Source: Spirosoma sp. KCTC 42546 (lineage in GTDB: Bacteria; Bacteroidota; Bacteroidia; Cytophagales; Spirosomataceae). From it: a stretch of 64,000 nucleotides of DNA. Positions 29,454-63,342 of the stretch are shown in pieces. The stretch is from contig NZ_CP041360.1 of the NCBI RefSeq assembly GCF_006965485.1, forward strand, positions 6,986,501-7,050,500. Reading direction: 5' to 3'. Under the pieces are notes generated by a model that saw only the letters and a program-made list of their open reading frames with translations, had not been told where the DNA came from and searched no databases. Both the position numbers and the translations under genes were made by a program. The stretch's first letter is position 1. Each line of letters opens with the position of its first letter.

Positions 29454-30413
29454 CTATTGGTGAATTTCAATCATTTTCCGAAAAGCCGAGGGAGTTACTG
29501 TCGCGTATTTTTTGAACAGATGGCTGAAATACGACGCATCTGCGATTCCTACCTGGGCAGCAACTTCACCAATAGAAAGCTGGGTTTGATAGAGTAACAC
29601 CTTGGCTTCCAATACTATAGTTTCATCAATCCATTTAATAGGCGATTTACCCGTAATGAGCCGAACTGACTTGTTCAGATGATTAGCCGAAATGTTGAGT
29701 CGGTCGGCGTATTCGGCTACCAGATGATAATTCTTGCCGTAGGTGAAAAGCAATTCTTTAAACCTGTTAGTAATGTTGAGAGCAGGAATTTTGGGACTGA
29801 CCAGCGCAGGCTGATAGGCCTGATTGATTTCACTTAATAGGGTAATGAACGTAGCTTGTATTAGGACTAGCTGCGTGAGTCCAAAGGTGGAATAATGCAA
29901 CAACATTCGGTTGAACACCTGGCTGACGAAATCCGCCGTTGGCTTATCTAACCTGACATGTGGGTTGCCCCAGACCCGTAGAAACTCGTAGTCGTTGAGC
30001 AACTCGGCTTTGCCAAATCGCCCGATTAGAAAATCAGGATGGAAGTTGCAGAGATACCCTTCATTCTCGTTTACCATATTGACCGCATCGACGGAGAACA
30101 CCTGGCCTGCTGGCACAAACAGGCACGTGTCCGGGCCAATTCTGTAAGTTTCTGCCCCGACTCCCATTGTAACTTCGCCCTGTGATAAATACACCAAACT
30201 GTGATTGGTCGAACGTACTGGTGGCACGGGCAGCTTCATCGTAGGAATAGCATCTTCGATTCGGGTGACGAAGAAGTGCCCGAAGTTTGTTTTAAGCAGG
30301 TTATCTACAAGCGCTTCTGCTCGTATGTACTGGTGGCGAAAGCTCTCATTCGTGTACGTTTTAATCGATTCGGCCATTTTATCGGGCAAAGGAGTTCTGT
30401 CGACAATATGCAA
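29454..30413 (-). CDS. AraC-family regulator
   Basis: 319 residues. N-terminal cupin-like domain (MKLPVPPVRSTNHSLVYLSQGEVTMGV and FVPAGQVFSVDAVN) and C-terminal AraC domain (about 220-319: VAEYADRLNISANHLNKSVRLITGKSPIKWI, LSIGEVAAQVGIADASYFSHLFKKYATVTPSAFRKMI). Third member of the AraC set in this region. Its target may be the SMP-30/DoxX genes downstream on the same strand. Start could alternatively be the ATG at residue 13. Confidence 0.88.
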   Translation of the reverse strand: MHIVDRTPLPDKMAESIKTYTNESFRHQYIRAEALVDNLLKTNFGHFFVTRIEDAIPTMKLPVPPVRSTNHSLVYLSQGEVTMGVGAETYRIGPDTCLFVPAGQVFSVDAVNMVNENEGYLCNFHPDFLIGRFGKAELLNDYEFLRVWGNPHVRLDKPTADFVSQVFNRMLLHYSTFGLTQLVLIQATFITLLSEINQAYQPALVSPKIPALNITNRFKELLFTYGKNYHLVAEYADRLNISANHLNKSVRLITGKSPIKWIDETIVLEAKVLLYQTQLSIGEVAAQVGIADASYFSHLFKKYATVTPSAFRKMIEIHQ

Positions 30414-38308: not shown

Positions 38309-39443
38309 TTAATTACTACTTACTAACGAGTGCGAACGTTGTAACATTAAGTAAATAATTCTAAACCAAATCAATGCACATGGCAGGGCTTTCAGCACAT
38401 AGGGCTTAACAAATTGCTCCCGTATAAAGGGCGGAAAAATATCGCTCGGTGAAAAAACGGTGAATACAAGACAACTAATCAGAAGTGCGCGATCAAGCCT
38501 GCTCTGAGGACAGTAAAACCACCAAACCATTACGCCAGTTACAGCCGTAATATAGGTTGGCGACTCAGAAACGGGATTAAAAATAACCTGAAAAATGAGA
38601 ACAGACGCGATCATCAATATACGAAATGAGCGCTCACCAAACCGATTAACCTGACTATAAACGCTACAGAATACTACAATACCTAAGCCAATAATGACTG
38701 ATGTTGGAACATCTGGGGAGATGAATACATGAACAAGTCGATGAATCGATGTATTTGCCCATTTGTCATGATCAGACTTAATAAATAACTGATGTACCCA
38801 CAAATCATACTGCCATAGTAACTTGGTGGGTGTCGTGAATAAGAGGGGCAATAAACCAAGCAACACGCCCCATAGTATCTATAGACACTAAAGAACGTGG
38901 TTTCTGGGGGTAAAGCAGAAACAAGGCGGCTGCAACAAGGCTATAAATCTTAATATTGAAACCAAGAATGATAAAAAAAGCAGCCCAGAAGTGTTGTCGT
39001 TTCTCAAAACTAATGAATGCAGCTAATGGAATAGCACCGATAAGCGGATTTGTCTGACTATTCACTAACGACGTGAATAATTCCTGTAAACAAAACCAGT
39101 AGGCAAACACCTTCTGCTGATGCGAAAGCGGCATTCGGTAGATGGCCAACACCCAAATACCGGCAAACAGAAAATGCCATAGAAATAGCCCTGCCGAAAA
39201 AGGCAGCATAAAAACAGGTGCAAATAAAGCTGGGAAGGTAGGAGCGTAATGAAAATGATCAGCGTATTGGTCCGGATAGAGGCTATACAGGCTTTTGCCC
39301 TCTAGCAGATGCTCGAGCGAATAATAGAAAATCCGGTAATTGTTCGAATCGAGAAGTATAACTGTTCGAACACTGACAAAAAGTGTAAGTAGGGCAAAAA
39401 TGCCGAAGATGAATCGATACGGTGAGTTTAGGGATTCTCTACG
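38309..39443 (-). pseudogene. GT87/DUF2029-type membrane glycosyltransferase, decayed
   Basis: The minus strand reads SPYRFIFGIFALLTLFVSVRT, then multi-spanning sequence with LEGKSLYSLYPDQYADHF, YAPTFPALFAPVFMLP and later NPVSESPTYITAVTGVMVWW, the fingerprint of GT87-like polyprenyl-sugar transferases. Two lesions: no ATG/GTG/TTG exists between the in-frame stop before 39443 and residue about 75, and a one-base shift near 38870 separates the first half (ends 38805) from the second half (starts about 38866). Overlaps the deacetylase gene end by about 16 bp. Natural role would have been transfer of sugar from a lipid carrier. Confidence 0.75.
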
Positions 39444-51558: not shown

Positions 51559-51783
51559 TTAAATTTTAATACTATTTGTAGTCGGAAGCCACATGCCTAG
51601 CGTTGGCAATTCAATCAGAATGCTAATGGGTTTGCCTAGTACGATTCCGCCGTTTACCTGCTCCAGCAAATCGTTGGTAAGCTGACCATTTTCGTCTACT
51701 TCAGCCAATTTTTTCATAAATTCCTCCTGGCTTAGATTAGCCTGTTGCAGGGTCTTAATTTTGTCGTTAATGCCTTTTTTCAT
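51559..51783 (-). CDS. Putative RiPP/bacteriocin precursor with double-glycine leader
   Basis: 74 residues. The leader (about 1-46) is amphipathic and acidic (LSQEEFMKKLAEVDENGQLTNDLLEQVNGG) and ends at NGG, the double-glycine cleavage motif of PCAT-type peptidase transporters. The core (47-74) is short, hydrophobic and Cys-free: IVLGKPISILIELPTLG and so on. With no Cys it is not a lanthionine peptide. The start follows a GACCTTTG -10-like box and a TATAACCTAATTGAATAAA element. Partner: the Cys-rich gene downstream. Confidence 0.6.
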   Translation of the reverse strand: MKKGINDKIKTLQQANLSQEEFMKKLAEVDENGQLTNDLLEQVNGGIVLGKPISILIELPTLGMWLPTTNSIKI

Positions 51784-51981: not shown

Positions 51982-54650
51982 TTAAGGCATTTCTATCGCC
52001 TTTATATTATCTTTTGGATGTCGGTCAATAAGCAGATTCATGGGGTCAATGCCAGCACGGTCTGGCTTCTGATTCACGCGCACTATAATGAACTGCTTCG
52101 GCTTTGTAATGTGGTGGCGCTGGTAGTATAGCAACTTTTCGGAATCGCTGCCTTTAGCCTTAGGCGCGTAAACCCCTATCCATATCCACTCATTTATGGG
52201 TCGTTTGGTCTCGTTACCGAGACTATCAGCCCGAACCTTTTCAGCAGATACTGTAACCTGAACGTCGTATTGTTTGCCTACCGGCGTCACCGTTACCTTA
52301 TCCGTTTTGAGTTCATATAGTGTGATGGCATTCACCCAGTCATCGAGCAGCCCCCGAAGGCTATCAGGCGTTACGGCTTGTAGTTCGCTGGTTAAGTCAG
52401 CTGCGGTTGGGTAAATTCCCGTTTGGGCTACCCTGGCCACATTCCAGCGATCGCGGTAGGCACGTAGCGCCTGATTCAGTTTGTCTTCACCAATCTGATC
52501 CTGCAATGCGTACAATACGTGCGCTCCTTTATTATAATGAATGTACTGCTGACCTTCGCATTGCGACAAAGGTTGCTCTTTCTTCGTCTCGGACTGACGG
52601 CCACGGAGGTAATAATCCAGTTCATAGCGTAGAAATTCCTGCATCCGCTCCTGAGGGTACTGATGCTTCATCACCATGAGTGCGCTGTATTCGGCCAAAG
52701 ATTCAGATAGCATAGCACTGCCCCGTACGTTGGCTTCGGTAACCTGATGGCCCCACCACTGATGGGCTGTTTCGTGAGCTGTCACAAAGAAAGGCATATC
52801 GATATCCTGCTTATCGTCGATGTCGGCAACAAACCCCATATCCTCCCCAAACGGAATGGTATTGGCAAACGATTGGGCATAACTCCGGTAGCGCGGAAAC
52901 TCCATAATGCGCAACTGGCGATGCTGAAAAGCGCCGTAGTTAGCCTGATAATAAGCCAGCGATGCTTTCATACCACGCATCATTCGGTCGAGATTGTGGG
53001 GATGGCCGGGGTGATAGTATATTTCCAGACTAATGGGATTGCCAGCTTTGCCTGTATAGACTTCCTTTTTGACCAGATACCGTGCCGAAACGATGGAATA
53101 AAAATCGGCGATGGGCGAATCCATCTGGTAACTGAAGTACCGGCGTTTCTTGCCATCAGGCCCGGTTTTGAGCCATTCTTTCTGTAGATAGCCCGGCGCA
53201 ATGGCGGTTTGATCGGGCGTGGTACTGATGGTCATGGCAAACCGAATCTGGTCGGCATCATCACCAAACACGTTCTGGCGCACACCAGCCGGGTCATTCT
53301 GAGCACGCATCCTCTCTTTCGGTTTCAGGCCATTATCTTTCCGTTTGTCATCAGAACTCAGCTCATACTGTTCACTGTAGCCAATACCCGGAAAATATTG
53401 ATTGGTAAAAAACGTGCCGTTTTGGACAATGTCGATGTTAGCATTCCCATTTTTGAATCCCTTGGTCCGGTAGAGCAAGTCAAAATCGAGCCGTAGACTA
53501 TCGCCCGGTTGCAGCGGTTGATCGAGATGATACATTCGGTAGGCATAATCGGCAACCTATAGATTATCAAGTTGGCTTGGTACCGAGAGTTTGAGTTGTT
53601 TCACCTGAATGTCATCATTCGGATAGCTTTGCAGATGGATGTACCGAATTGGCTGGGTTGTTTTATTTTTCAGGATATACCAACCCGTTGCCGTGAAATC
53701 ACGGGTTTCTGGAAACAGATCGACATTCACCGTGATAGCCGTGATTCGGGGCTGTGGCAAACTGGCAAATCGTTTAAGTGTCTTTTCATAATCGGCCTGC
53801 TGCGCTTCATCGGCTTTACTATTCCGATACTGGTTGAGCACGTTGGTGTTGTAATAAATGTATGACCCACTGGAGATAAAGACGATCAGCATGGCCAACC
53901 CAAACGTCAGCACAGGCCGGGTTAGCTGGTGCCGACCGATTTGCAACCGAAGCTTCAATAATTCCTCCGATCCACGCACCGATAAGACAACCGCGCCCGC
54001 GAATAAGAGTGCCCCAAACGCCGACCAATAGAGGGTTGTCCAGGAAAAAGGCGCAACGTAATGCCCAAAGCCGTTCATATCGGAATAGGTGCCCAGTGAA
54101 GCCGAATCGAATACCAACAGCCGATGCTCCCAACCCAGATACGATAAAACACCCAGAACCACGAAGAACAGGACCATGAGCGCGTGTCCGGCAAACTTAT
54201 TATTCACCATCGTATGAATAAAGAAGCCGAGCAACATGAACGTTAGAAGGCCCAGTAACGTATTGCCGTACAGGCTGGCAGCATATACCGACCAGTTGAT
54301 GAGCGATGCCCCTCCATGTAGTACCTGCATCAATGCCCCTAACCCAATGGCCAGCGTGATCATCAGCGCAAAGGCCAGTCCTAAGCCAAGGTATTTACTC
54401 AAAACAGCACCCAGTTCGGTACAGGCAACGCATCGCTGATCAGGCTGATCCGTACATCTCGCTCCTTCCAGATCAGATCACCAACGTACACAATTGTCCG
54501 CATCAACGACGATTTGCCCGCGCCATTGGGTCCAAGTAGCCCAAAAAGGCCTGGCTCAATGGTTAAGGATACGCCGTTCAGTGCGCGAACCGCACCAGCA
54601 GACTGCCCAGTGTTGTAGGTCTTGGTTAGGTAGTCGATTACTAAATTCAT
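51982..54650 (-). pseudogene. ABC transporter/M1 aminopeptidase gene with three lesions
   Basis: From 54650 the minus strand reads an ABC ATPase start (MNLVIDYLTKTYN, LFGLLGPNGAGKSSLMRTI, Walker A) that jumps near 54490 into a permease segment (GDLIWKERDVRISLISDALP), so Walker B and signature parts are deleted. One T is missing near 54401-54404, shifting the frame into the permease helices (LSKYLGLGLAF). A TAG at 53557-53559 then interrupts at LDNL*VADYAYR; after it the frame is open to 51982 as an M1 peptidase (FFVTAHETAHQWWGHQV, zinc site HExxH-E). Intact homologues are permease-peptidase fusions beside a separate ATPase. It cannot make a working transporter. Confidence 0.75.
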
Positions 54651-54782
54651 AGCAATAGGAAAAGTGAATTAATACGAAGGTCAGAAATCAGTTACAGGTC
54701 GATTGACTACAGGACTTTCGCCGAAGGCCTGAACTATCTGCTCTTACAAAGCAGCCTGTTAGCAACCCAAAGGAAAATATAT

Positions 54783-54813
54783 TTCGACCAATGCCCCCTT
54801 TTCTTCGACCAAT
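54783..54813 (-). promoter_or_regulatory. Pair of LytTR-like boxes upstream of the ABC gene
   Basis: Minus strand ATTGGTCGAA twice (54813-54804 and 54792-54783), starts 21 bp apart, reading toward the ABC pseudogene 132 bp downstream. The rest of 54651-54942 holds no gene. Confidence 0.6.
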
Positions 54814-54942
54814 AAGATCGGGGATGCGACGATTGAAAAACACGTAGTCTAGGGACACTCGTGCAATGAATTGCCAAAGCAAAATCTGTACACAAGCCCC
54901 CATGCAATGAGCTTGCGTATAGAGTGCCCGTTTGTTCAGTCG

Positions 54943-55179
54943 CTATTGCTGACGAACAGCCGTGATGAGCAGATCCTGTAAGGTTAACTCAATGAGATCC
55001 ATTAAGCTGATCTTATACAAAGACGATACTTGTTGTAGCACGGTGAGGGATAACTCGGTTCGTCCCGTTTCTTTTTTACTATAAGCAGCCTGGCTAACAC
55101 CTAACTGAAAGGCAACGTACTCCTGTGGATAGCCGTGAATCTCCCGGAGTTTGCGGATTTTGGTGGCAATGGGGTTCAT
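54943..55179 (-). CDS. XRE-type helix-turn-helix regulator
   Basis: 78 residues, essentially one HTH domain: IRKLREIHGYPQEYVAFQLGVSQAAYSKKETGRTELSLTVLQQVSSLYKISLMDLIEL, the classical Cro/CI five-helix pattern. Small regulators of this kind act as dimers on operators nearby. Its start is 75 bp from a pair of ATTRGTCGAA boxes that read toward it, and the LytTR regulator is divergent from it. Possible alternative: antitoxin, but no toxin gene is adjacent. Confidence 0.85.
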   Translation of the reverse strand: MNPIATKIRKLREIHGYPQEYVAFQLGVSQAAYSKKETGRTELSLTVLQQVSSLYKISLMDLIELTLQDLLITAVRQQ

Positions 55180-55253
55180 GATATATATCGGTAAAGGTTT
55201 ATGTTGTTTGACCGATACAAACTAACCGAGCAGCCTAACGGCAGAAAATTTAT

Positions 55254-55284
55254 TTCGACCAATAGGGCATTTGCTTCGACTAAT
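55254..55284 (-). promoter_or_regulatory. Pair of LytTR-like boxes between the XRE and LytTR genes
   Basis: Minus strand ATTAGTCGAA (55284-55275) and ATTGGTCGAA (55263-55254), starts 21 bp apart. Oriented toward the XRE gene; also only 41 bp from the LytTR ATG in the other direction, so it could serve both. Confidence 0.6.
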
Positions 55285-55324
55285 ACGTCACCATAACGGG
55301 TTTATAGAATATATTGCTTCTATT

Positions 55325-56098
55325 ATGAAGGATATACTCACCTGTTACTTAGTCGATGACGAGTCACCTGCCCATGTCATCATGTCGAAATACATCAGCC
55401 GTGTGCCTTATCTGGCCCTGCTTGGGCAGACATACGATCCGTTTGAGGGATTGGAACAGGTCCAACAACGTAAACCCGATATCCTGTTTCTGGACGTTGA
55501 AATGCCGTACATGACGGGTGTTGAGTTTTTGAAATCGCTGCAGAAACCTCATCCTATGGTCATTATGGTAACGGCCTCCCCTCAATTTGCGGCCGAAACC
55601 TACAACTTCGATGCGGTGACCCATTATTTGCTCAAGCCTGTAGGGTTCGATAAGTTTCTGGAGGCCATCAACCGGGTAACCAAACGGCTTAACTTTGAGA
55701 TAGACCCCAATGCGCCGACGCCAACGCGCCCACCAGCCCGTGTGCAAACACAAGCCCCAGTCGACCCGCGCGAAAAAATCCCTTACTTTCTGATTAAGGA
55801 AGACAAGAAGCTGATCCGTGTAGCGCCGGAGGATATTGTCTTTGCCGAAGGCATGAAAGACTACCTCAAGTTGCACCTCACAACGCGTGTTCTGATCACA
55901 CACATGACCATGAGCAAGCTGGAGGAGATGCTCCCCCCCTCGCAATTTCTGCGAATTAACCGGTCTTATATTGTCCGGCGGCAAGCGATCAAAGAGATCG
56001 ATGGCAATCAGATTACTACTCTCGACGGGAAGAAAGTAGTTATTGGCGTCACCTACCGCGAACGGGTGATGGAGGAGTTAAAGAAGAATATGATTTGA
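55325..56098 (+). CDS. LytTR-family response regulator
   Basis: 257 residues from ATG 55325 (a longer frame adds 18 unrelated residues). Receiver domain 1-120 with acidic pair D11/D12, phospho-acceptor D57 in DILFLDVEMPYMTG, T83-type switch and K104 in HYLLKPVGF. A Pro-rich linker (TPTRPPARVQTQAP) leads to a LytTR DNA-binding domain from about 155 (FLIKEDKKLIRVAPEDIVFAEGMKDYLKLHL, FLRINRSYIV). LytTR domains bind two short direct repeats spaced about two helix turns, as found at 54783, 55254 and 57286. The kinase follows 53 bp downstream. Confidence 0.92.
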   Translation: MKDILTCYLVDDESPAHVIMSKYISRVPYLALLGQTYDPFEGLEQVQQRKPDILFLDVEMPYMTGVEFLKSLQKPHPMVIMVTASPQFAAETYNFDAVTHYLLKPVGFDKFLEAINRVTKRLNFEIDPNAPTPTRPPARVQTQAPVDPREKIPYFLIKEDKKLIRVAPEDIVFAEGMKDYLKLHLTTRVLITHMTMSKLEEMLPPSQFLRINRSYIVRRQAIKEIDGNQITTLDGKKVVIGVTYRERVMEELKKNMI

Positions 56099-56151
56099 AT
56101 TCTGAGGCAATAAATTATAGTGTTAACTAGACCCAATCCCACACTTGTATT

Positions 56152-57279
56152 ATGAGCCAAGTTCAAGATGAATTTATGAATCCTATATTAAACCCAACAA
56201 CGATTAAAAGATGGATAAATCACATTTTACTATGGGCAGTGTTTTCATATTTCATGCGTTATTTCGTTGTTGATATTTTTTACAAAGACAATATCGTGGT
56301 AGTAAATTGGCTGTCTATCAGCTTAATTATACAAACAATTTCACTTTACTATTGTCTTGGATATTATGTTTTCCCTAGGCATTTATACAATTTCAGTATA
56401 GTGCCCTTTATATCATGGATCTTAGTTTGTCATTTTATTATTTACGAGAGTAATTATTTATTATTCTACTATTTACAACAGATTAATAGTGGGCCTCGAA
56501 TTGAAAGGGATTGGCAGTTATTTCATCATGCTTACTGGTACGGATGTTTTTCAAATGGAGCAGCGGCTTTTTTTAGTTTCTTCTACAGTTTCCCTTTTGC
56601 AATTATACTATTAGCCGTACAGGTCGTTAATGCTATTATTAACCTTCGGACTAAAAACCTACAACTTGAAAAAGATAAGCTAAACCTTGAATTAGATTTT
56701 CTAAAATCCCAAGTCAACCCCCACTTTCTATTCAATACCCTTAATAGTGTGTATTCCCGCATTTTTGATAATGATGAAAAAGCGGCTGATTTGATTCTGC
56801 GCCTATCGGAGTTGATGCGCTACAATCTTTATGAAACAGATTCTCCAAAAATTGCCCTTGATAAAGAACTAGCCTACATCCAGAATTACCTTAATCTGGA
56901 GCGTAACCGGCTTTCGGATCGACACGTGGTGATCGAGTATGAACAGCGTGGGAATCCCTCAACCTATCAGATTACACCGTTGCTACTCATCGCTTTTGTG
57001 GAAAATGCCTTCAAGCATGGTGCAAAAGGCACTACAGATCCAGCTTATGTGCAGGTAAGTGCCGATATAACAGCAGGCCAACTTGTGTTCCGGGTTGAGA
57101 ATAGTGTGCCCAATAAACTGCCTGTTAGCGAGCTAGACAGGAAATCAGGGGGCGTTGGACTTGGCAATGTACGAAGGCGATTAGATACGTTGTATAAAGA
57201 CAAATACGAGTTAGTTGTAACACAAACTGAGATTACATACGAAGTTACGCTTATCATTCAGGTCGAGATTTTACCCTAA
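56152..57279 (+). CDS. LytS-type sensor histidine kinase
   Basis: 375 residues. Four membrane segments (about 22-42, 55-75, 83-110, 138-160) without extracytoplasmic domain, a coiled linker (LRTKNLQLEKDKLNLELDFLKS), then the His_kinase domain with H191 in SQVNPHFLFNTLNSV, YIQNYLNLERNRLSDR and an HATPase-type N box (ITPLLLIAFVENAFKHGAKG) and G box (GGVGLGNVRRRLDTLY). Partner of the LytTR regulator just upstream. First half is AT-rich, unlike its neighbours. An internal ATG at residue 9 is a possible start. Confidence 0.92.
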   Translation: MSQVQDEFMNPILNPTTIKRWINHILLWAVFSYFMRYFVVDIFYKDNIVVVNWLSISLIIQTISLYYCLGYYVFPRHLYNFSIVPFISWILVCHFIIYESNYLLFYYLQQINSGPRIERDWQLFHHAYWYGCFSNGAAAFFSFFYSFPFAIILLAVQVVNAIINLRTKNLQLEKDKLNLELDFLKSQVNPHFLFNTLNSVYSRIFDNDEKAADLILRLSELMRYNLYETDSPKIALDKELAYIQNYLNLERNRLSDRHVVIEYEQRGNPSTYQITPLLLIAFVENAFKHGAKGTTDPAYVQVSADITAGQLVFRVENSVPNKLPVSELDRKSGGVGLGNVRRRLDTLYKDKYELVVTQTEITYEVTLIIQVEILP

Positions 57280-57285
57280 CAAAGC

Positions 57286-57374
57286 ATTAGTCGAAGCGAT
57301 TAGACCATTAGTCGAAAAATGCCCGCTCATATGTCGAAAGTAGTTGAAGCGACTATATGCATCTGCTAGTTTTG
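57286..57374 (+). promoter_or_regulatory. LytTR-like boxes and promoter of the LanB operon
   Basis: Two perfect ATTAGTCGAA boxes (57286-57295, 57307-57316) start 21 bp apart; a weaker third, ATATGTCGAA, begins at 57329, 22 bp on. Then -33 TTG at 57344-57346, 20 bp, and TAGTTTTG at 57367-57374, an exact TAnnTTTG element. Reads into the peptide gene at 57448; the proximal box ends 131 bp before the ATG, matching the 132 bp at the ABC gene. Confidence 0.65.
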
Positions 57375-57447: not shown

Positions 57448-57579
57448 ATGAACACGCAAACACCATCTGCTCCAACCCGCTTAATTTTTAAAAGACAACG
57501 TATTGTTTGCCTAACTACCATTTCAGCGAATCCTAAAAATAATGGAAGAACAACAATTTTCACTTTAGGAAATTTCTAG
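57448..57579 (+). CDS. Putative lanthipeptide-type precursor peptide
   Basis: 43 residues, MNTQTPSAPTRLIFKRQRI followed by a tail rich in dehydratable residues: VCLTTISANPKNNGRTTIF and so on. It has one Cys (C21), one Ser after it and several Thr (23, 24, 35, 36, 39). A FNLD-like leader box is replaced by LIFKRQRIV, close to the LxKxTI pattern of Bacteroidetes class I precursors. First gene of the operon driven by the promoter at 57344-57374, followed by the receiver-like gene and LanB. Because there is only one Cys, at most one thioether ring could form. Too short to be called with certainty. Confidence 0.5.
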   Translation: MNTQTPSAPTRLIFKRQRIVCLTTISANPKNNGRTTIFTLGNF

Positions 57580-57585
57580 TCACCA

Positions 57586-57945
57586 TTGCCCAACTACCTG
57601 CTCATCAATCCATCAATGGCGAGTCGGCGTCAACTCGCTCATTACCTCCAACGCACCGGCTGGCTTAACGTTGGCCAGACCGGAGCGTTTACGGAGGATA
57701 TGCTGACCGCCATTCAGACCACCAAACACGCACTGGTCTTTCTGCGGCTTGCCAACCCGGACGACCATGTCCCCGGCCCGTTTCTGGATGCGTTGCGTAC
57801 TCATCCGGCAGTTATTATTACTTCGCCTTATCCGCAGCATCTGTTCAACCATCTGAACCTGAACCCGTTCGACTTTCTAACTGAACCGTATTCATTCGAG
57901 CGGTTTGCGGTTTGCATGGATGCGTATGTTAGCCGATACGGTTGA
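57586..57945 (+). CDS. Receiver-fold protein without phosphotransfer residues (pseudo-receiver)
   Basis: 119 residues that align along their full length with a response-regulator receiver domain: YLLINPSMASRRQLAHYLQR, HALVFLRLANPDDHVPGPFL, HPAVIITSPYPQHLF and FDFLTEPYSFERFAVCMDAYV. The acidic pair is NP, the phospho-Asp position is Arg (FLRL), and the switch Lys is Glu (LTEP). No output domain. Start TTG at 57586, six bases after the precursor stop; an ATG at 57616 would cut the first strand. Probable adaptor of the peptide operon. Confidence 0.65.
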   Translation: MPNYLLINPSMASRRQLAHYLQRTGWLNVGQTGAFTEDMLTAIQTTKHALVFLRLANPDDHVPGPFLDALRTHPAVIITSPYPQHLFNHLNLNPFDFLTEPYSFERFAVCMDAYVSRYG

Positions 57946-58037: not shown

Positions 58038-61000
58038 ATGGTTCAACCGAAGGATTTTTTCATTTTACGTCAACCGACGTATTCACTCGACCACTTACTT
58101 CTTGTTTATAATCAGCTTGCTACCACCCCTTTATCCGACCTGCTGCGTCAGCATTACCAGGACCCGCTGGCGCAGCAGGCCATTTTTGTCGCATCGCCCG
58201 CCCTCTATGAGCGATTTCAACGGTGGCTATCGGGCGAAACCCTTCCCGAGCAGGATAAACTACTGATAACGCTTCATAAATACCTGATTCGGATGTGTAG
58301 CCGCCCCACACCCTATGGCCTCTTTGCGGGTTGCACAGTAGGAAGTTTCGGCGCGCAAACCCAATTACGAGCGGGCACAACCACAACGCTTCAAACCCAT
58401 ACCCGTATCGATATGGACTGCTTGCTGGCAATCTGCCAGTGGCTCAGTAACCAGCCCATTATCCGAGAGCAACTACGTTTATTTCCCAATTCATCCCTCT
58501 ACCCAATAGGCTCATCGTTGCGGTATATTGAGCAGCAGTTCGATCATAAGCAGCGTAGCTACTTTATCAGTGTTGCCGAAGCCGAACCCCATCTGACAGC
58601 AGTTCTGGAAGCAGCGCGTACCGGAGCAACCATTCAGGAGCTGGCAACCCGATTAACAACATTTAACATCGATCAGCACGAAGCCATTAGTTTTGTTAAA
58701 CAACTCATTGAAGGACAGCTATTATCATTTGAACTAGAACCAACTGTAACAGGCCTGCACTACCTGAATCGGCTCACGGCACGAATTGCATCCTTGAGCG
58801 GTACCACCGAAATCACGAACCATTTACGCCAATTACAGACCTGCCTGCAACAGCCTGATCGACTGCTGGCTTACGCACAGGTTCAGGCATGGTTTACCGA
58901 CCGGGGCATCCCTCTGCCCTCTGCCGACATCGTTCAGGTAGATGCCTTCTTTGATAATCCAGCGCTGCAATTGGGCAAGCACGCGTTGCAACTCCTGCAA
59001 CGAGATCTTGAGAAATTGCAGGTCCTGAACCAACCAAACAAATGTCCTGACCTCGATGAATTTAAACGGCGGTTCTACAATCGTTATGAAGATGAGGAAG
59101 TTCCGTTGGCACTGGCTATCGATGCCGAATCGGGCCTTGGCTATGGCTCTGGCTCAACATTTGGTGTAGGTTATGCCCCCCTGATCGATGACTTAACCTT
59201 TGCAACAAGTCCGGCTACCCAAGCCACGACCTGGGACTGGTGGCAAACCCTGGTAATGGACAAGTACACGCAGGCACTCCGCACAACTCGAACGGCTGGT
59301 GCCGTCCATGAAATTGTCCTGACCGAAGATGATTTAACCTACATCAATAGCCAGGTAATAACGTCGTCTGTTCCCGATAGCTTTTATGTATTCGGTACGC
59401 TGCTGGCCAGCTCGCCCAACGCTGTGGATGAAGGCGATTTTAAGTTTAATTTACTGGCTTGCAAAGGGCCATCGGCCATAAACCTGCTCAGCCGATTTGG
59501 GGAGGGTCATGAATCATTAGCCCAACGGCTTAAACAGTGCGCCCTAGCCGAAGAGAACCATCATCCAGATGTGATCATTGCCGAGATCGTTCACTTGCCC
59601 GAAAACCGGGTTGGTAATATCTTAATCCGACCGACCACCCATCAATACGAAATCCCATATATGGGCCAATCGTCGGTAGAGCCGGATTATCAAATTCCCC
59701 TGACCGACTTACTGGTGTCGGTTCGGTATGACCAAACTGCTCAGGGACAGATTATTTTACGGTCCAGGCGGCTCAACAAACGGATTATCCCCCGCCTGAG
59801 CAACGCACACAATTTCTCGCAGGGGTTACCCATTTATCGGTTCCTGTGCGACTTACAAGCCCAGGACTCCCATCTGAACATTGCCTGGAATTGGGGTATT
59901 CTGCGAACGCAGACCTATCTACCCAGGGTTCGTTACCGGAACATCATTCTTAGCCGGGCTACCTGGCAACTTGCCTGTAACGAGCTTACACCCGACAATC
60001 CATTACGATTAGTAGCCCAGTTAACGGCGGCTGGCTTACCCGACCAATTTGTAATTGCCCAGGGCGATAATGAGTTATTTATTTCGATGCACACGCCTGC
60101 CTCGCTGGCATTGCTGGCCCAGGAAATTCGTCGATTGACTCGTGCAGACGCATCAGGCCACATCAGACTGGTTGAGTTTCTATCGATGCCCGACCGCTCG
60201 CCCTTAACCAGCAAACGCGATCATTTTACCCATGAATTACTTATTCCGTTCAAAAATTTAGCGGCAAAATCGTTTTCTGGCCTGAGTCAATCGACAGGTA
60301 TATTGCCTCAGCGCAAGTTCTCGATTGGGAGCGAATGGTTCTATTTGAAAGTGTATACCGGCGAAAAAACATCCGACACACTCCTGACTGAAACCATTTA
60401 TCCGGTAGTACAACAGTTGCTAAAGACGCACATCATTGATGAATTCTTCTTTGTTCGCTACAAAGACACCGATTCCCATTTGCGCCTGCGCTTTCGCGGA
60501 AACGCCCATCTCGAATTCTATCATCATGTGGTGCGGGTTATGGAAAAAGCATTGCACGAAGCGATTGAGTCAGGTATCGTGCATAGCATCAAAGTAGATA
60601 CCTATCAGCGGGAACTCGAACGCTACGGTCTGGAGCACATGCCCCTGTGCGAAACATTATTCTATTACGACAGTCTGTCTACGTTAGCCTTCATTGCGCG
60701 TACCGGCAATGAGTTTGACGAAAACCTACGGGTTGCCATTGCCATTCGTAAAATTGACCAGCTATTGGTGGGGGCAGGACTTGCACCTGATGCCTGCCTG
60801 AATATACTAGGGGAACTAAAAGAACGCTTTTTTCAGGAATTTGGCGGCTCACCGGAGCTACGCCATCAACTCAATGAAAAATACCGGACGTATCGACCCC
60901 TGATGGATCAGGCACTGGCCGACGATTTTCCAATTGCTGGCGACCTGACTAACTGGGAACACCGCCAGACCGAACTTGTGCAGAAACTGGTACACTCCTT

Positions 61001-61163
61001 AGCAAACTCTCACCGGCTCTATGCCATTTTAAGCAGTGTGATTCACATGATGGTCAATCGCCTGTTTCCATCCAAACAGCGCGCTTATGAATTGGTACTC
61101 TACCATTGCTTAGCCCGCCATTATGACTCCCTGCGCGCCCGACAAAAAGTCGTTGACCCATAA
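58038..61163 (+). CDS. LanB-type lantibiotic dehydratase, full length
   Basis: 1041 residues from MVQPKDFFILRQPTYSLDHLL; a frame upstream adds 10 residues. The N-terminal glutamylation domain (about 1-650) has the PF04738 pattern, e.g. LIRMCSRPTPYGLFAGCTVG, RTRIDMDCLLAI-like and VRYDQTAQGQIILRSRRL. The C-terminal elimination domain (about 745-1035) has WFYLKVYTGEKTSDTLL, FFFVRYKDTDSHLRLRFRG, and ERYGLEHMPLCETLFYYDS. Class I LanB uses glutamyl-tRNA to glutamylate Ser/Thr and then eliminates to Dha/Dhb. Unlike pinensin-type clusters the two parts are in one protein. No LanC cyclase is seen in the window. Confidence 0.92.
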   Translation: MVQPKDFFILRQPTYSLDHLLLVYNQLATTPLSDLLRQHYQDPLAQQAIFVASPALYERFQRWLSGETLPEQDKLLITLHKYLIRMCSRPTPYGLFAGCTVGSFGAQTQLRAGTTTTLQTHTRIDMDCLLAICQWLSNQPIIREQLRLFPNSSLYPIGSSLRYIEQQFDHKQRSYFISVAEAEPHLTAVLEAARTGATIQELATRLTTFNIDQHEAISFVKQLIEGQLLSFELEPTVTGLHYLNRLTARIASLSGTTEITNHLRQLQTCLQQPDRLLAYAQVQAWFTDRGIPLPSADIVQVDAFFDNPALQLGKHALQLLQRDLEKLQVLNQPNKCPDLDEFKRRFYNRYEDEEVPLALAIDAESGLGYGSGSTFGVGYAPLIDDLTFATSPATQATTWDWWQTLVMDKYTQALRTTRTAGAVHEIVLTEDDLTYINSQVITSSVPDSFYVFGTLLASSPNAVDEGDFKFNLLACKGPSAINLLSRFGEGHESLAQRLKQCALAEENHHPDVIIAEIVHLPENRVGNILIRPTTHQYEIPYMGQSSVEPDYQIPLTDLLVSVRYDQTAQGQIILRSRRLNKRIIPRLSNAHNFSQGLPIYRFLCDLQAQDSHLNIAWNWGILRTQTYLPRVRYRNIILSRATWQLACNELTPDNPLRLVAQLTAAGLPDQFVIAQGDNELFISMHTPASLALLAQEIRRLTRADASGHIRLVEFLSMPDRSPLTSKRDHFTHELLIPFKNLAAKSFSGLSQSTGILPQRKFSIGSEWFYLKVYTGEKTSDTLLTETIYPVVQQLLKTHIIDEFFFVRYKDTDSHLRLRFRGNAHLEFYHHVVRVMEKALHEAIESGIVHSIKVDTYQRELERYGLEHMPLCETLFYYDSLSTLAFIARTGNEFDENLRVAIAIRKIDQLLVGAGLAPDACLNILGELKERFFQEFGGSPELRHQLNEKYRTYRPLMDQALADDFPIAGDLTNWEHRQTELVQKLVHSLANSHRLYAILSSVIHMMVNRLFPSKQRAYELVLYHCLARHYDSLRARQKVVDP

Positions 61164-61319: not shown

Positions 61320-61499
61320 ATGAAAGCACGCATTCACACTGAGCATTCTTTTGAAGTATGGATTAACAACGATACTGATTCTCTAGCGGATGAAACGGGT
61401 TCTTTTGACGATAACTGGATCGTATCTGCCGGCGATTTATTTGACAACATGGCGTTGTCCAATGACGAGTCTATTAGTTATTATGATGAGGTTGCATAA
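61320..61499 (+). CDS. Small acidic protein of unknown function
   Basis: 59 residues, MKARIHTEHSFEVWINNDTD followed by a very acidic remainder ending SYYDEVA. No Cys, no membrane segment, no double glycine. Net charge is strongly negative. It sits between LanB and a lipoprotein gene, each preceded by the same upstream element. It could be a further precursor, a chaperone-like partner or an anti-factor; no family recognised. Confidence 0.55.
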   Translation: MKARIHTEHSFEVWINNDTDSLADETGSFDDNWIVSAGDLFDNMALSNDESISYYDEVA

Positions 61500-62166: not shown

Positions 62167-62358
62167 ATGAAAAATTTAAATTTAGAAAATTACGAAATAG
62201 ACAATTTAGCCAATATAGCCAAGGAAGATGCTAAGGCTATAAATGGTGGTTTAACATTTGATGAGTTTGCTGAGTGGTATGTTGATACTTGTTATAGTAT
62301 TGCAAATAGTTTTGCAAAAGGTTTTGTAAAAGGATTTAACGCATCATACAAAGGCTAA
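62167..62358 (+). CDS. Double-glycine bacteriocin-like peptide A
   Basis: 63 residues from ATG 62167. Leader about 1-28 ends DAKAINGG, the double-glycine cleavage site; the core (29-63) LTFDEFAEWYVDTCYSIANS and on has one Cys (C42) and a GxxxG motif (GFVKG, 52-56) in a cationic amphipathic helix (AKGFVKGFNASYKG). These are class II bacteriocin features. Very AT-rich codons. Next gene, 22 bp on, is a second peptide of the same type. No dedicated transporter is visible in the window. Confidence 0.65.
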   Translation: MKNLNLENYEIDNLANIAKEDAKAINGGLTFDEFAEWYVDTCYSIANSFAKGFVKGFNASYKG

Positions 62359-62380
62359 TTCTCCCTAACTTCTATAATTT

Positions 62381-62587
62381 ATGAACACAAAAACTATAAA
62401 TGATTGGAATCTTACTGAACTTGATTCCTACTCGCAACTAAGTATCGACGGCGGCAAAGATTGGGTAGAAAGCTTTGGCTATGCATGCGGGTATCTGTGT
62501 GGTGCTGCTACTAATGCAGCGGGTATCTTAGGCCGTGGCCTTGCGGATGCCCTCGCAGGTGAAATTATGGGAGGAGCATTTAAATAG
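62381..62587 (+). CDS. Double-glycine bacteriocin-like peptide B
   Basis: 68 residues. Leader 1-25 ends LSIDGG; the core (26-68, KDWVESFGYACGYLCGAA..) carries C36 and C40, GxxxG (GYLCG, 37-41) and a Gly/Ala-rich helix (AAGILGRGLADALAGEIMGG). With peptide A 22 bp upstream it fits a two-peptide (class IIb) bacteriocin, in which the two cores pair through GxxxG contacts in the target membrane. The product ends at a hairpin terminator. Confidence 0.65.
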   Translation: MNTKTINDWNLTELDSYSQLSIDGGKDWVESFGYACGYLCGAATNAAGILGRGLADALAGEIMGGAFK

Positions 62588-62598
62588 CAATTAAAATT

Positions 62599-62636
62599 AA
62601 GGCAAACAGTATCTTTTTTTAGTTACTGTTTGCCTT
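62599..62636 (+). terminator. Terminator hairpin between peptide B and the CPBP gene
   Basis: AAGGCAAACAGTA (62599-62611) and TACTGTTTGCCTT (62624-62636), a perfect 13-bp stem with a T-rich loop. It overlaps a TTG that could otherwise start the next gene. Confidence 0.7.
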
Positions 62637-62649
62637 GAAAATTTTACCG

Positions 62650-63342
62650 ATGTATATTTTTCACCAGTATATTCAGCAAGTGCCACATAATAGATTGCAA
62701 AAATGGCGTGAACTTTTATACGCTTTTATAATCTATTACGCAATAGGCATATTATGTACTATATTTATAATAGTTACTGATTTTTTTGTTGTAAAAATAC
62801 TTGATCACCCATCGATTCTAAGTTCACATTTTAAGTTAGATGAGTACATCAAAACAATGGGTTTATATAAAAGTATTTTTTTTAGTTCGGTAAAAGCACC
62901 TATTATCGAAGAGTTATCATTCCGATTGTTATTACGGCCAACCCGTTTCAATGTGTCATTTTCAATAGCTTTTTTTATATTTTTATTATTCGATACTATT
63001 TTATACTTTAGTGATTTACCTACTTATAGTATAAGGCTCGTAATCTGCCTGCTTCTCTTTTTCTTTCTATATATTACTTACAATCCTTTATGGCTTTCTG
63101 CGTTAAAAATTACCGATTATAAACTACTAACTATTACATCGTTAGGTTTTGGGGCTATTCACATAACTAACTTCACTACTATTGATAAAGGTTTATTTTT
63201 CATCTATCCTATATACATTTTACCTCAAATTTTTCTCGGTTTTATATTAGGCATTATTCGAATTAGAAATGGGTTTATTTGGGCAGTATTATTGCACATA
63301 TTGGTAAACGGTTCTGTAACGTGGCATAAATTTTTTCAGTAA
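62650..63342 (+). CDS. CPBP-family intramembrane protein, putative bacteriocin immunity
   Basis: 230 residues from MYIFHQYIQQ; a TTG five codons earlier lies in the terminator stem. Six to seven hydrophobic segments. Abi/CPBP motifs: E87-E88-x3-R92 in APIIEELSFRLLL, FGAIHITNFTT (HxxxN-type) and LLHILVNG (second His-Asn pair). CPBP proteins are membrane proteases of the type-II CAAX group and include the Lactobacillus/Enterococcus bacteriocin self-immunity proteins. Position directly after two bacteriocin-like genes supports immunity. Strongly AT-rich. Confidence 0.75.
   Translation: MYIFHQYIQQVPHNRLQKWRELLYAFIIYYAIGILCTIFIIVTDFFVVKILDHPSILSSHFKLDEYIKTMGLYKSIFFSSVKAPIIEELSFRLLLRPTRFNVSFSIAFFIFLLFDTILYFSDLPTYSIRLVICLLLFFFLYITYNPLWLSALKITDYKLLTITSLGFGAIHITNFTTIDKGLFFIYPIYILPQIFLGFILGIIRIRNGFIWAVLLHILVNGSVTWHKFFQ

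Follow-up and report, generated by a model that had tools for sequence, protein, structure and literature searches.

Paired direct repeats around a LytTR regulator gene in Spirosoma as predicted operators of a local regulon with a peptide-modification operon

Introduction

Known LytTR sites consist of 9- to 11-nucleotide repeats separated by spacers of 11 to 13 nucleotides (PMC4847170) and lie just upstream of the -35 element (PMC6193735), as far as the extracts of these and the other papers cited here describe them. In this study, we analyzed a 64,000-nucleotide stretch of Spirosoma sp. KCTC 42546 (contig NZ_CP041360.1, positions 6,986,501 to 7,050,500, forward strand; hereafter, the window), in which pairs of the 10-bp box ATTRGTCGAA flank the genes of a LytTR response regulator and a LytS-type histidine kinase. 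An earlier note, made from the sequence alone, had taken these pairs to define a LytTR regulon. Among the open-licence papers listed in our searches, no title or abstract opening describes LytTR sites in Spirosoma or LytTR control of such clusters in Bacteroidota.

Several described systems resemble this locus. In the pln system of Lactobacillus plantarum (PlnC/PlnD), two direct repeats about two helical turns apart, to which LytTR response regulators bind, precede several operons of a bacteriocin locus, lie directly upstream of the -35 box, and differ in strength from target to target, as they do here (PMC2714321). The pln repeats are 9-bp TACGTTAAT elements with a 12-bp spacer, whereas those studied here are 10 bp long, with an 11-bp spacer and a Bacteroidota-type promoter. 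The pln regulatory operon is also described as autoregulated; here, unlike in both pln and blp, no site faces the LytTR-LytS operon. The blp and gallocin systems (BlpR, BlpS), for whose parts our locus has putative counterparts, comprise a dedicated kinase and LytTR regulator, a conserved 30-bp operator, coinduced operons elsewhere in the genome that include an ABC transporter, and a one-domain half of a response regulator that tunes the system (PMC8545106). In the gallocin case this half is BlpS, a LytTR domain alone that acts as an antagonist, whereas our candidate modulator consists only of a receiver-like domain; blp/gallocin has a cognate pheromone, while a peptide signal for our system is only a guess.

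The LytTR systems of Streptococcus mutans and the operons of Bacteroides that resemble LytTR regulatory systems (LRS) have, like the present sites, spacers of 11 to 12 bp and repeats 4 to 11 bp upstream of the promoter; the Bacteroides examples match in both their 11-bp spacers and their TATCTTTG elements. LRS regulators are described as autoactivated and partnered by a membrane inhibitor, in contrast to the response regulator and PF06580 kinase found here (PMC6193735). The operators of RcoM1 and CoxC contain three direct repeats at nearly regular intervals, as does that of the peptide operon described below, yet the repeats are of an 8-bp TTCNNGCA type and the regulators respond to carbon monoxide, and our locus has three boxes only at the peptide operon and two elsewhere (PMC11347149).

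We propose that the sites are operators of the LytTR regulator encoded at 55325..56098, which is paired with the LytS-type kinase and would activate the gene of an XRE-type regulator, an ABC transporter/M1 peptidase (ABC/M1) operon, and a peptide-modification operon. We put the probability of this reading at about 0.88; the evidence for it is all computational, and binding is predicted.

Results

Boxes and sites in the window

The predicted boxes and the genes that they surround are as follows (window coordinates).

54783..54792, minus strand: promoter-proximal LytTR box of the ABC/M1 arm, ATTGGTCGAA
54804..54813, minus strand: distal LytTR box of the ABC/M1 arm, ATTGGTCGAA, 21-bp period
54943..55179, minus strand: XRE-type (HTH_3) regulator, 78 amino acids (aa)
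55254..55263, minus strand: promoter-proximal LytTR box of the XRE arm, ATTGGTCGAA
55275..55284, minus strand: distal LytTR box of the XRE arm, ATTAGTCGAA, ending 40 bp before the LytTR ATG
55325..56098, plus strand: LytTR response regulator (Response_reg and LytTR domains), with FLRINRS at residue 208
56152..57279, plus strand: LytS-type histidine kinase (PF06580), N-terminal half hydrophobic
57286..57295, plus strand: box 1 of the array of three boxes before the peptide operon, ATTAGTCGAA
57307..57316, plus strand: box 2 of the same array, ATTAGTCGAA
57329..57338, plus strand: box 3 of the same array, ATATGTCGAA, degenerate, in phase, and promoter-proximal

The earlier note had described six boxes in three direct pairs around a regulator/kinase gene pair. 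All six lie where it placed them, each an exact match to ATTRGTCGAA; its distances of 132, 74, and 131 bp from the proximal box to the ATG of the ABC, XRE, and LanB arms are correct, and the genes between the boxes carry the Pfam domains of a LytTR regulator and a LytS kinase. Its account of the targets needs amending. The site that it read as a pair before LanB has the two boxes but also a third, at 57329..57338, that it missed; the operon behind is real, but its first gene encodes a 43-aa peptide (start at 57448), not LanB; and an ABC frame does follow the first site, but that gene is a broken remnant. One more exact box, at 30204, has no partner. No pair with at most 2 mismatches is oriented toward the LytTR-LytS operon in the window, so the autoactivated regulatory operon of the pln/blp type was not found; with polarity judged by the position of the TTTG motif described below, the boxes point away from that operon.

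Rarity of the pairs in the genome and the family

We searched the genome that contains the window (G000, a single contig of 8.66 Mb) with the reversed pattern or motif as the control. With any gap from 1 to 31 allowed, the search found three exact ATTRGTCGAA pairs, all with gap 11, and the control gave none. The three are precisely the noted sites, each with a 21-bp period; the random genome-wide spacing that would have undone the earlier claim was not seen. A first-order Markov model from the window predicts about 0.002 exact pairs by chance, whereas single boxes are expected about 36 times and alone prove nothing. Across 222 genomes of the family, we found 26 exact pairs in 17 genomes (control, 1 match), with gap 11 in 20, gap 12 in 5, and gap 4 in 1. 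The geometry that the earlier note called typical of LytTR, two direct repeats about two turns apart, is that of known sites: 10-nucleotide repeats with spacers of 11 or 12.

Looser searches added no site. At up to 3 mismatches the gap-11 pattern gave 8 matches in the genome against 18 for the control, which is noise. A weight matrix trained without the sites of the window scored the four known pairs at 27.6 to 36.0, against maxima of 6.1 to 15.0 in ten Markov shuffles. The next match (39339-39370, score 19.5) has no TTTG at the expected place, and another, at 19.1, joins one ABC box to a weak outer partner; neither was counted. A wider regulon elsewhere in the genome was therefore rejected, there being no further exact pair and a 3-mismatch list no better than the control. 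The order-wide pattern search returned matches in 29 of 390 genomes, a mixture of likely real and chance sites.

Promoter geometry

The -7 element of Bacteroidota promoters has TTTG as its core. We located the following putative promoter elements.

54747..54750, minus strand: ABC arm, TTTG core of the predicted -7 element, starting 32 bp past the proximal box
55218..55221, minus strand: XRE arm, TTTG core of the predicted -7 element, starting 32 bp past the proximal box
57344..57346, plus strand: TTG of the predicted -33 element of the peptide operon, 5 bp after box 3
57367..57374, plus strand: TAGTTTTG, predicted -7 element (TAnnTTTG) of the peptide operon

In all three arms TTTG starts exactly 32 bp past the promoter-proximal box, provided that in the peptide operon this box is the weak third one, ATATGTCGAA. 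At the -33 place of the peptide operon, most relatives have GTTGA or close variants. We infer from these elements that each arm has a promoter. We collected 53 unique pair sites (at most 2 mismatches, gap 11 or 12) from 73 sequences, namely the window and 72 loci; a three-box array with two qualifying pairs was counted twice, and the number of independent promoters is thus below 53. TTTG starts 32 bp after the second box in 25 of them and 33 bp after it in 6, while 11 more have it at 53 to 55 bp, a full repeat period beyond; by chance, about 0.2 sites would be expected at each offset. The full promoter pattern gave 20 matches in the genus against 4 for the control.

This geometry bears on whether the regulator might instead be a repressor, or activate XRE but repress its own gene. 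Overlap between the XRE-arm pair and the LytTR promoter is conceivable: wherever such a pair adjoins LytTR, the distal box lies 38 to 41 bp from the LytTR ATG. There is also precedent in CoxC, described as a LytTR repressor whose repeats overlap the -35 element (PMC11347149). Yet the boxes of the window end upstream of the -33 element and leave both -33 and -7 free, and in L039 and L055 the XRE site is not next to the start of LytTR. We consider such repression unlikely; the intergenic pair, 40 bp before the LytTR start, might dampen LytTR.

The three-box array of the peptide operon

In 25 loci, window included, we examined the DNA that separates the kinase gene from the peptide gene. Three boxes fit in 16 of them (15 of 24 besides the window), with 2 to 5 mismatches in total against 11 to 15 for the best fits of the reversed motif. 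In fifteen of these loci the LytTR orthologue shows at least 74% identity; in L058, the sixteenth, the figure is 55%. Mean mismatches are 1.1, 0.1, and 2.2 for the first, second, and third boxes; the middle box is thus the best and the promoter-proximal box the weakest. TTTG follows the third box at 32 to 33 bp in 13 of the 16 (exceptions, L034, L035, and L039). Four of the nine more distant loci (L089 to L092) have a recognizable version of the same array, with 7 to 8 mismatches and TTTG at 33. With its weak third box, the peptide-operon promoter may respond later or more steeply than that of XRE. We had considered three-box operators as new to LytTR proteins, a claim dropped in view of the three repeats described for RcoM1/CoxC.

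The ABC/M1 arm

The ABC/M1 arm of the window consists of the following pieces.

54399..54650, minus strand: ABC ATPase remnant, 83 aa; in relatives, about 1.9 to 2.0 kb lies between the two parts joined here
53557..54402, minus strand: permease piece, 281 aa, of the ABC permease/M1 peptidase protein
51982..53535, minus strand: M1-peptidase piece of the same broken gene
51559..51783, minus strand: double-glycine-leader-like peptide, 74 aa, downstream of the arm

In the eight other orthologues the permease/M1 protein is one open frame of 1208 to 1241 aa, while here it is in two pieces. Within 51982-54650 about 2 kb has been lost, and a stop separates two same-frame pieces. The operator in front of this decaying operon is intact, which suggests that the loss in this strain is recent. 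Peptides like that at 51559..51783 lie near XRE or ABC/M1 in several relatives.

The association of pairs with this operon holds well beyond the window. Nine genomes have the ABC/M1 operon at 68% identity or more, and in all nine it stands behind a pair with at most 2 mismatches, directly in eight and behind XRE and the XRE site in G215. The pair accompanies the operon even where the regulator is far away: 2.1 Mb off in G188, on another contig of the draft in G194 and G206, and at 5.57 Mb in G200, whose operon is at 0.77 Mb of a 5.76-Mb contig. As a control, we examined the upstream regions of 19 of the 25 ABC/M1 paralogue matches (32 to 40% identity). For the 18 whose ABC start could be read, the best gene-facing pair has 6 to 9 mismatches, as does the reversed motif (6 to 9), and the opposite strand gives 5 to 9. 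In the nineteenth, where the ABC start was not found, the whole stretch gives 5 mismatches against 7 reversed.

Which protein binds the sites

The LytTR domain of the regulator (PF04397, E value 1.4e-19) carries FLRINRS, which corresponds to the conserved FhRhHRS of LytTR domains (PMC4227749). Its nearest named relatives are from Spirosoma, Fibrella, and a metagenome-assembled genome of Spirosomataceae. Among the best 60 of 94 matches in a sequence search of the PDB, the matched stretches lie mostly in the receiver domain and thus provide no template for DNA contacts.

Within the genus, an exact pair is present in 10 of the 12 genomes that have a LytTR orthologue of at least 74% identity (our own included) and in 2 of the 24 that do not (Fisher's exact test over 36 genomes, p 1.5e-5). 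The two orthologue-bearing genomes lacking an exact pair have 1-mismatch pairs before XRE. More distant LytTR relatives, at 35 to 37% identity and with a differing LytTR domain, have pairs in none of five loci.

Another LytTR protein of the genome could bind the sites, alone or in cross-talk, and G000 has 67 LytTR domains from which to choose. Yet the sites adjoin this regulator and accompany its orthologues across genomes, and exact pairs are found nowhere else in the genome; we regard a different LytTR binder as quite unlikely. Sixteen of the 67 LytTR domains lie in open frames of only 119 to 174 aa. In L037, L060, L089 to L091, and L093, a single LytTR regulator occurs with two LytS-type kinases in tandem.

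The XRE protein itself is a further candidate, acting on its own gene and its neighbors. Of 20 orthologues of at least 63% identity, 18 have an upstream pair with no more than 2 mismatches, and among the 36 genus genomes XRE and LytTR occur together in 20, LytTR only in 3, XRE only in 1, and neither in 12. The two need not be neighbors: in G197 they are 3.1 Mb apart. What separates the two candidates is the neighboring genus g10, where four of five genomes have a LytTR orthologue (75 to 77%) and the same four have promoter-pattern sites, while no XRE orthologue is present (best match, 44%); the sites thus follow LytTR. Two caveats apply to these counts: of the three sites in G113 one is located elsewhere, and the control pattern also matches once in G114. 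The arrangement as direct repeats spaced by two turns is that of LytTR sites, and most sites end at a fixed distance before a -7-like core, as an activator requires. XRE is therefore a very unlikely binder. At L049:9263-9852, in g10, three tandem peptides of 51 to 52 aa occupy the XRE position behind an exact box pair.

Finally, chance repeats, or a repeat family without regulatory role, find some comfort in the 3-mismatch search but can be dismissed given three exact pairs where about 0.002 are expected, spacing and TTTG distance conserved in many genomes, and ABC/M1 orthologues that stand behind pairs while paralogues are at reversed-motif level.

Outside the family, four genomes of another family of the order (G377, G415, G445, and G447) have similar sites with a similar spacer, GTCGAA-N15-GTCGAA-N33-TTTG, perhaps another LytTR operator with the same core.

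Products of the peptide operon

Behind the three-box array lie the following genes.

57448..57579, plus strand: 43-aa peptide, candidate precursor of a ribosomally synthesized and post-translationally modified peptide (RiPP)
57586..57945, plus strand: pseudo-receiver, 119 aa, with Arg54 at the phosphoacceptor Asp position and Glu100 at the active-site Lys position
58038..61163, plus strand: LanB-type dehydratase (Lant_dehydr_N and Lant_dehydr_C)
61320..61499, plus strand: acidic protein, 59 aa, found after LanB in many relatives

All 16 loci that we read, window included, encode a similar short peptide, typically with ..PRLTLKKERIVCLT.., for which NCBIfam gave no informative match (best E value, 0.078). 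The peptide of the window has a single Cys, within a conserved RIVCLT stretch, and none after it; some relatives carry a Cys nearer the C terminus. LanB genes in Bacteroidetes are described as lying mostly outside Bacteroidales (PMC10352776). No LanC (PF05147) was matched in the whole genome at an E value of 0.001 or less, in a search that was positive in 1 of 14 control genomes. With neither LanC nor a core Cys, we do not file the cluster as a class I lanthipeptide, and a lanthipeptide product was rejected despite the presence of LanB. That the product is a dehydrated linear peptide is our guess.

The 119-aa protein has no informative NCBIfam name. Its structural model, of middling quality (mean pLDDT 67.7, pTM 0.62), has a receiver-like fold: the best 50 of 1147 Foldseek matches at E values up to 10 (best, 2.1e-4) are receiver domains or what we take to be receiver-containing proteins. 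In an alignment of the window protein with 27 of the 32 relatives found (five short ones were left out), the Asp position is Arg and the Lys position Glu in 28 of 28. In the 16 loci read, 15 have the protein between the precursor gene and LanB; by eye, the Asp position is Arg in ten of these, His in five (L038, L040, L049, L050, and L058), and Asp in none, and the Lys position is Glu in 15 of 15. Judging from these residues, the usual route of phosphorylation is closed to the pseudo-receiver. In L037 the protein is missing from the interval between array and LanB, and it is thus not indispensable.

Further downstream, at 62167-62587 and 62635-63342, double-glycine-leader-like peptides, which are candidate secreted peptides, stand beside a CAAX-type protease, and the two relatives examined have several such peptides in the matching place. 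The set resembles the bacteriocin/immunity sets of Gram-positive bacteria.

Discussion

Several lines of evidence converge on LytTR operators of a local regulon: the uniqueness of the pairs in the genome, their conserved spacing, the fixed -7-like distance at most sites, their co-occurrence with an adjacent LytTR across genomes, their persistence without an XRE orthologue, and their presence at an unlinked ABC/M1 operon with none at the 18 paralogues that could be read. In the mechanism that we envisage, a signal would reach the LytS-type kinase (a secreted peptide of the island as that signal is a guess), and the kinase would phosphorylate the LytTR regulator. The phosphorylated regulator would bind cooperatively to in-phase boxes that are spaced by 21 bp, lie on the same side of the helix, and end about 5 bp before the -33 element, and would activate promoters with a TAnnTTTG-type -7 core 32 to 33 bp after the last box. 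Its targets would be the small XRE regulator, the ABC/M1-peptidase operon (broken in this strain), and, through the three-box array, the operon for the 43-aa precursor, pseudo-receiver, and LanB-type dehydratase. Sequence supports the sites, their geometry, their conservation, and their co-occurrence with the regulator; binding, dependence on phosphorylation, activation over repression, and the nature of the signal are what we infer.

A number of observations weigh against this proposal. Eleven of the 53 pair sites lack TTTG at either expected place; among them are two ABC arms (G194 and G200) and three peptide arrays (L034, L035, and L039), and the ABC arm of G206 has TTTG at 28. Outside the genus the promoter pattern shows only a modest excess, 27 matches against 10 for the control. 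The array is unclear, with 6 to 11 mismatches, in 5 of the 25 loci (L093 to L096 and L041). Two XRE orthologues have poor sites, with 4 and 6 mismatches. Exact pairs also occur in G197 and G199, which have only a LytTR relative of 54 to 55% identity; the searched genes gave no match around the gap-4 pair of G044, and the pair of G146 adjoins a LytTR relative of 38% and has no TTTG at the expected place. Moreover, cross-talk is possible given the 67 LytTR domains of the genome.

The operator geometry is that of known LytTR sites, and the locus shares with pln and blp a LytTR regulator with its kinase and conserved sites at three kinds of target, whose regulation is predicted. Less ordinary are the phosphorylation-dead receiver in the peptide operon, a genome with no LanC match, and a broken ABC arm behind an intact operator. 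By analogy with BlpS, as described in the extract of PMC8545106, we guess that the pseudo-receiver modulates the LytTR/LytS pair. A bolder scheme, which we think rather doubtful, is a LytTR-driven signaling RiPP circuit of Bacteroidota: the pseudo-receiver would pair with the LytTR receiver or the kinase and close a feedback loop, mirroring the LytTR-only BlpS, while the LanC-less dehydratase would make a dehydroamino-acid peptide, maybe the signal itself.

For one of the 67 LytTR regulators of this genome, and for a type of peptide cluster conserved in its relatives, the analysis supplies a concrete predicted operator, a promoter geometry, and a list of targets. Such operators would offer a way to switch on silent peptide clusters, and the receiver-only protein encoded within the peptide-modification operon is a case that lends itself to testing.

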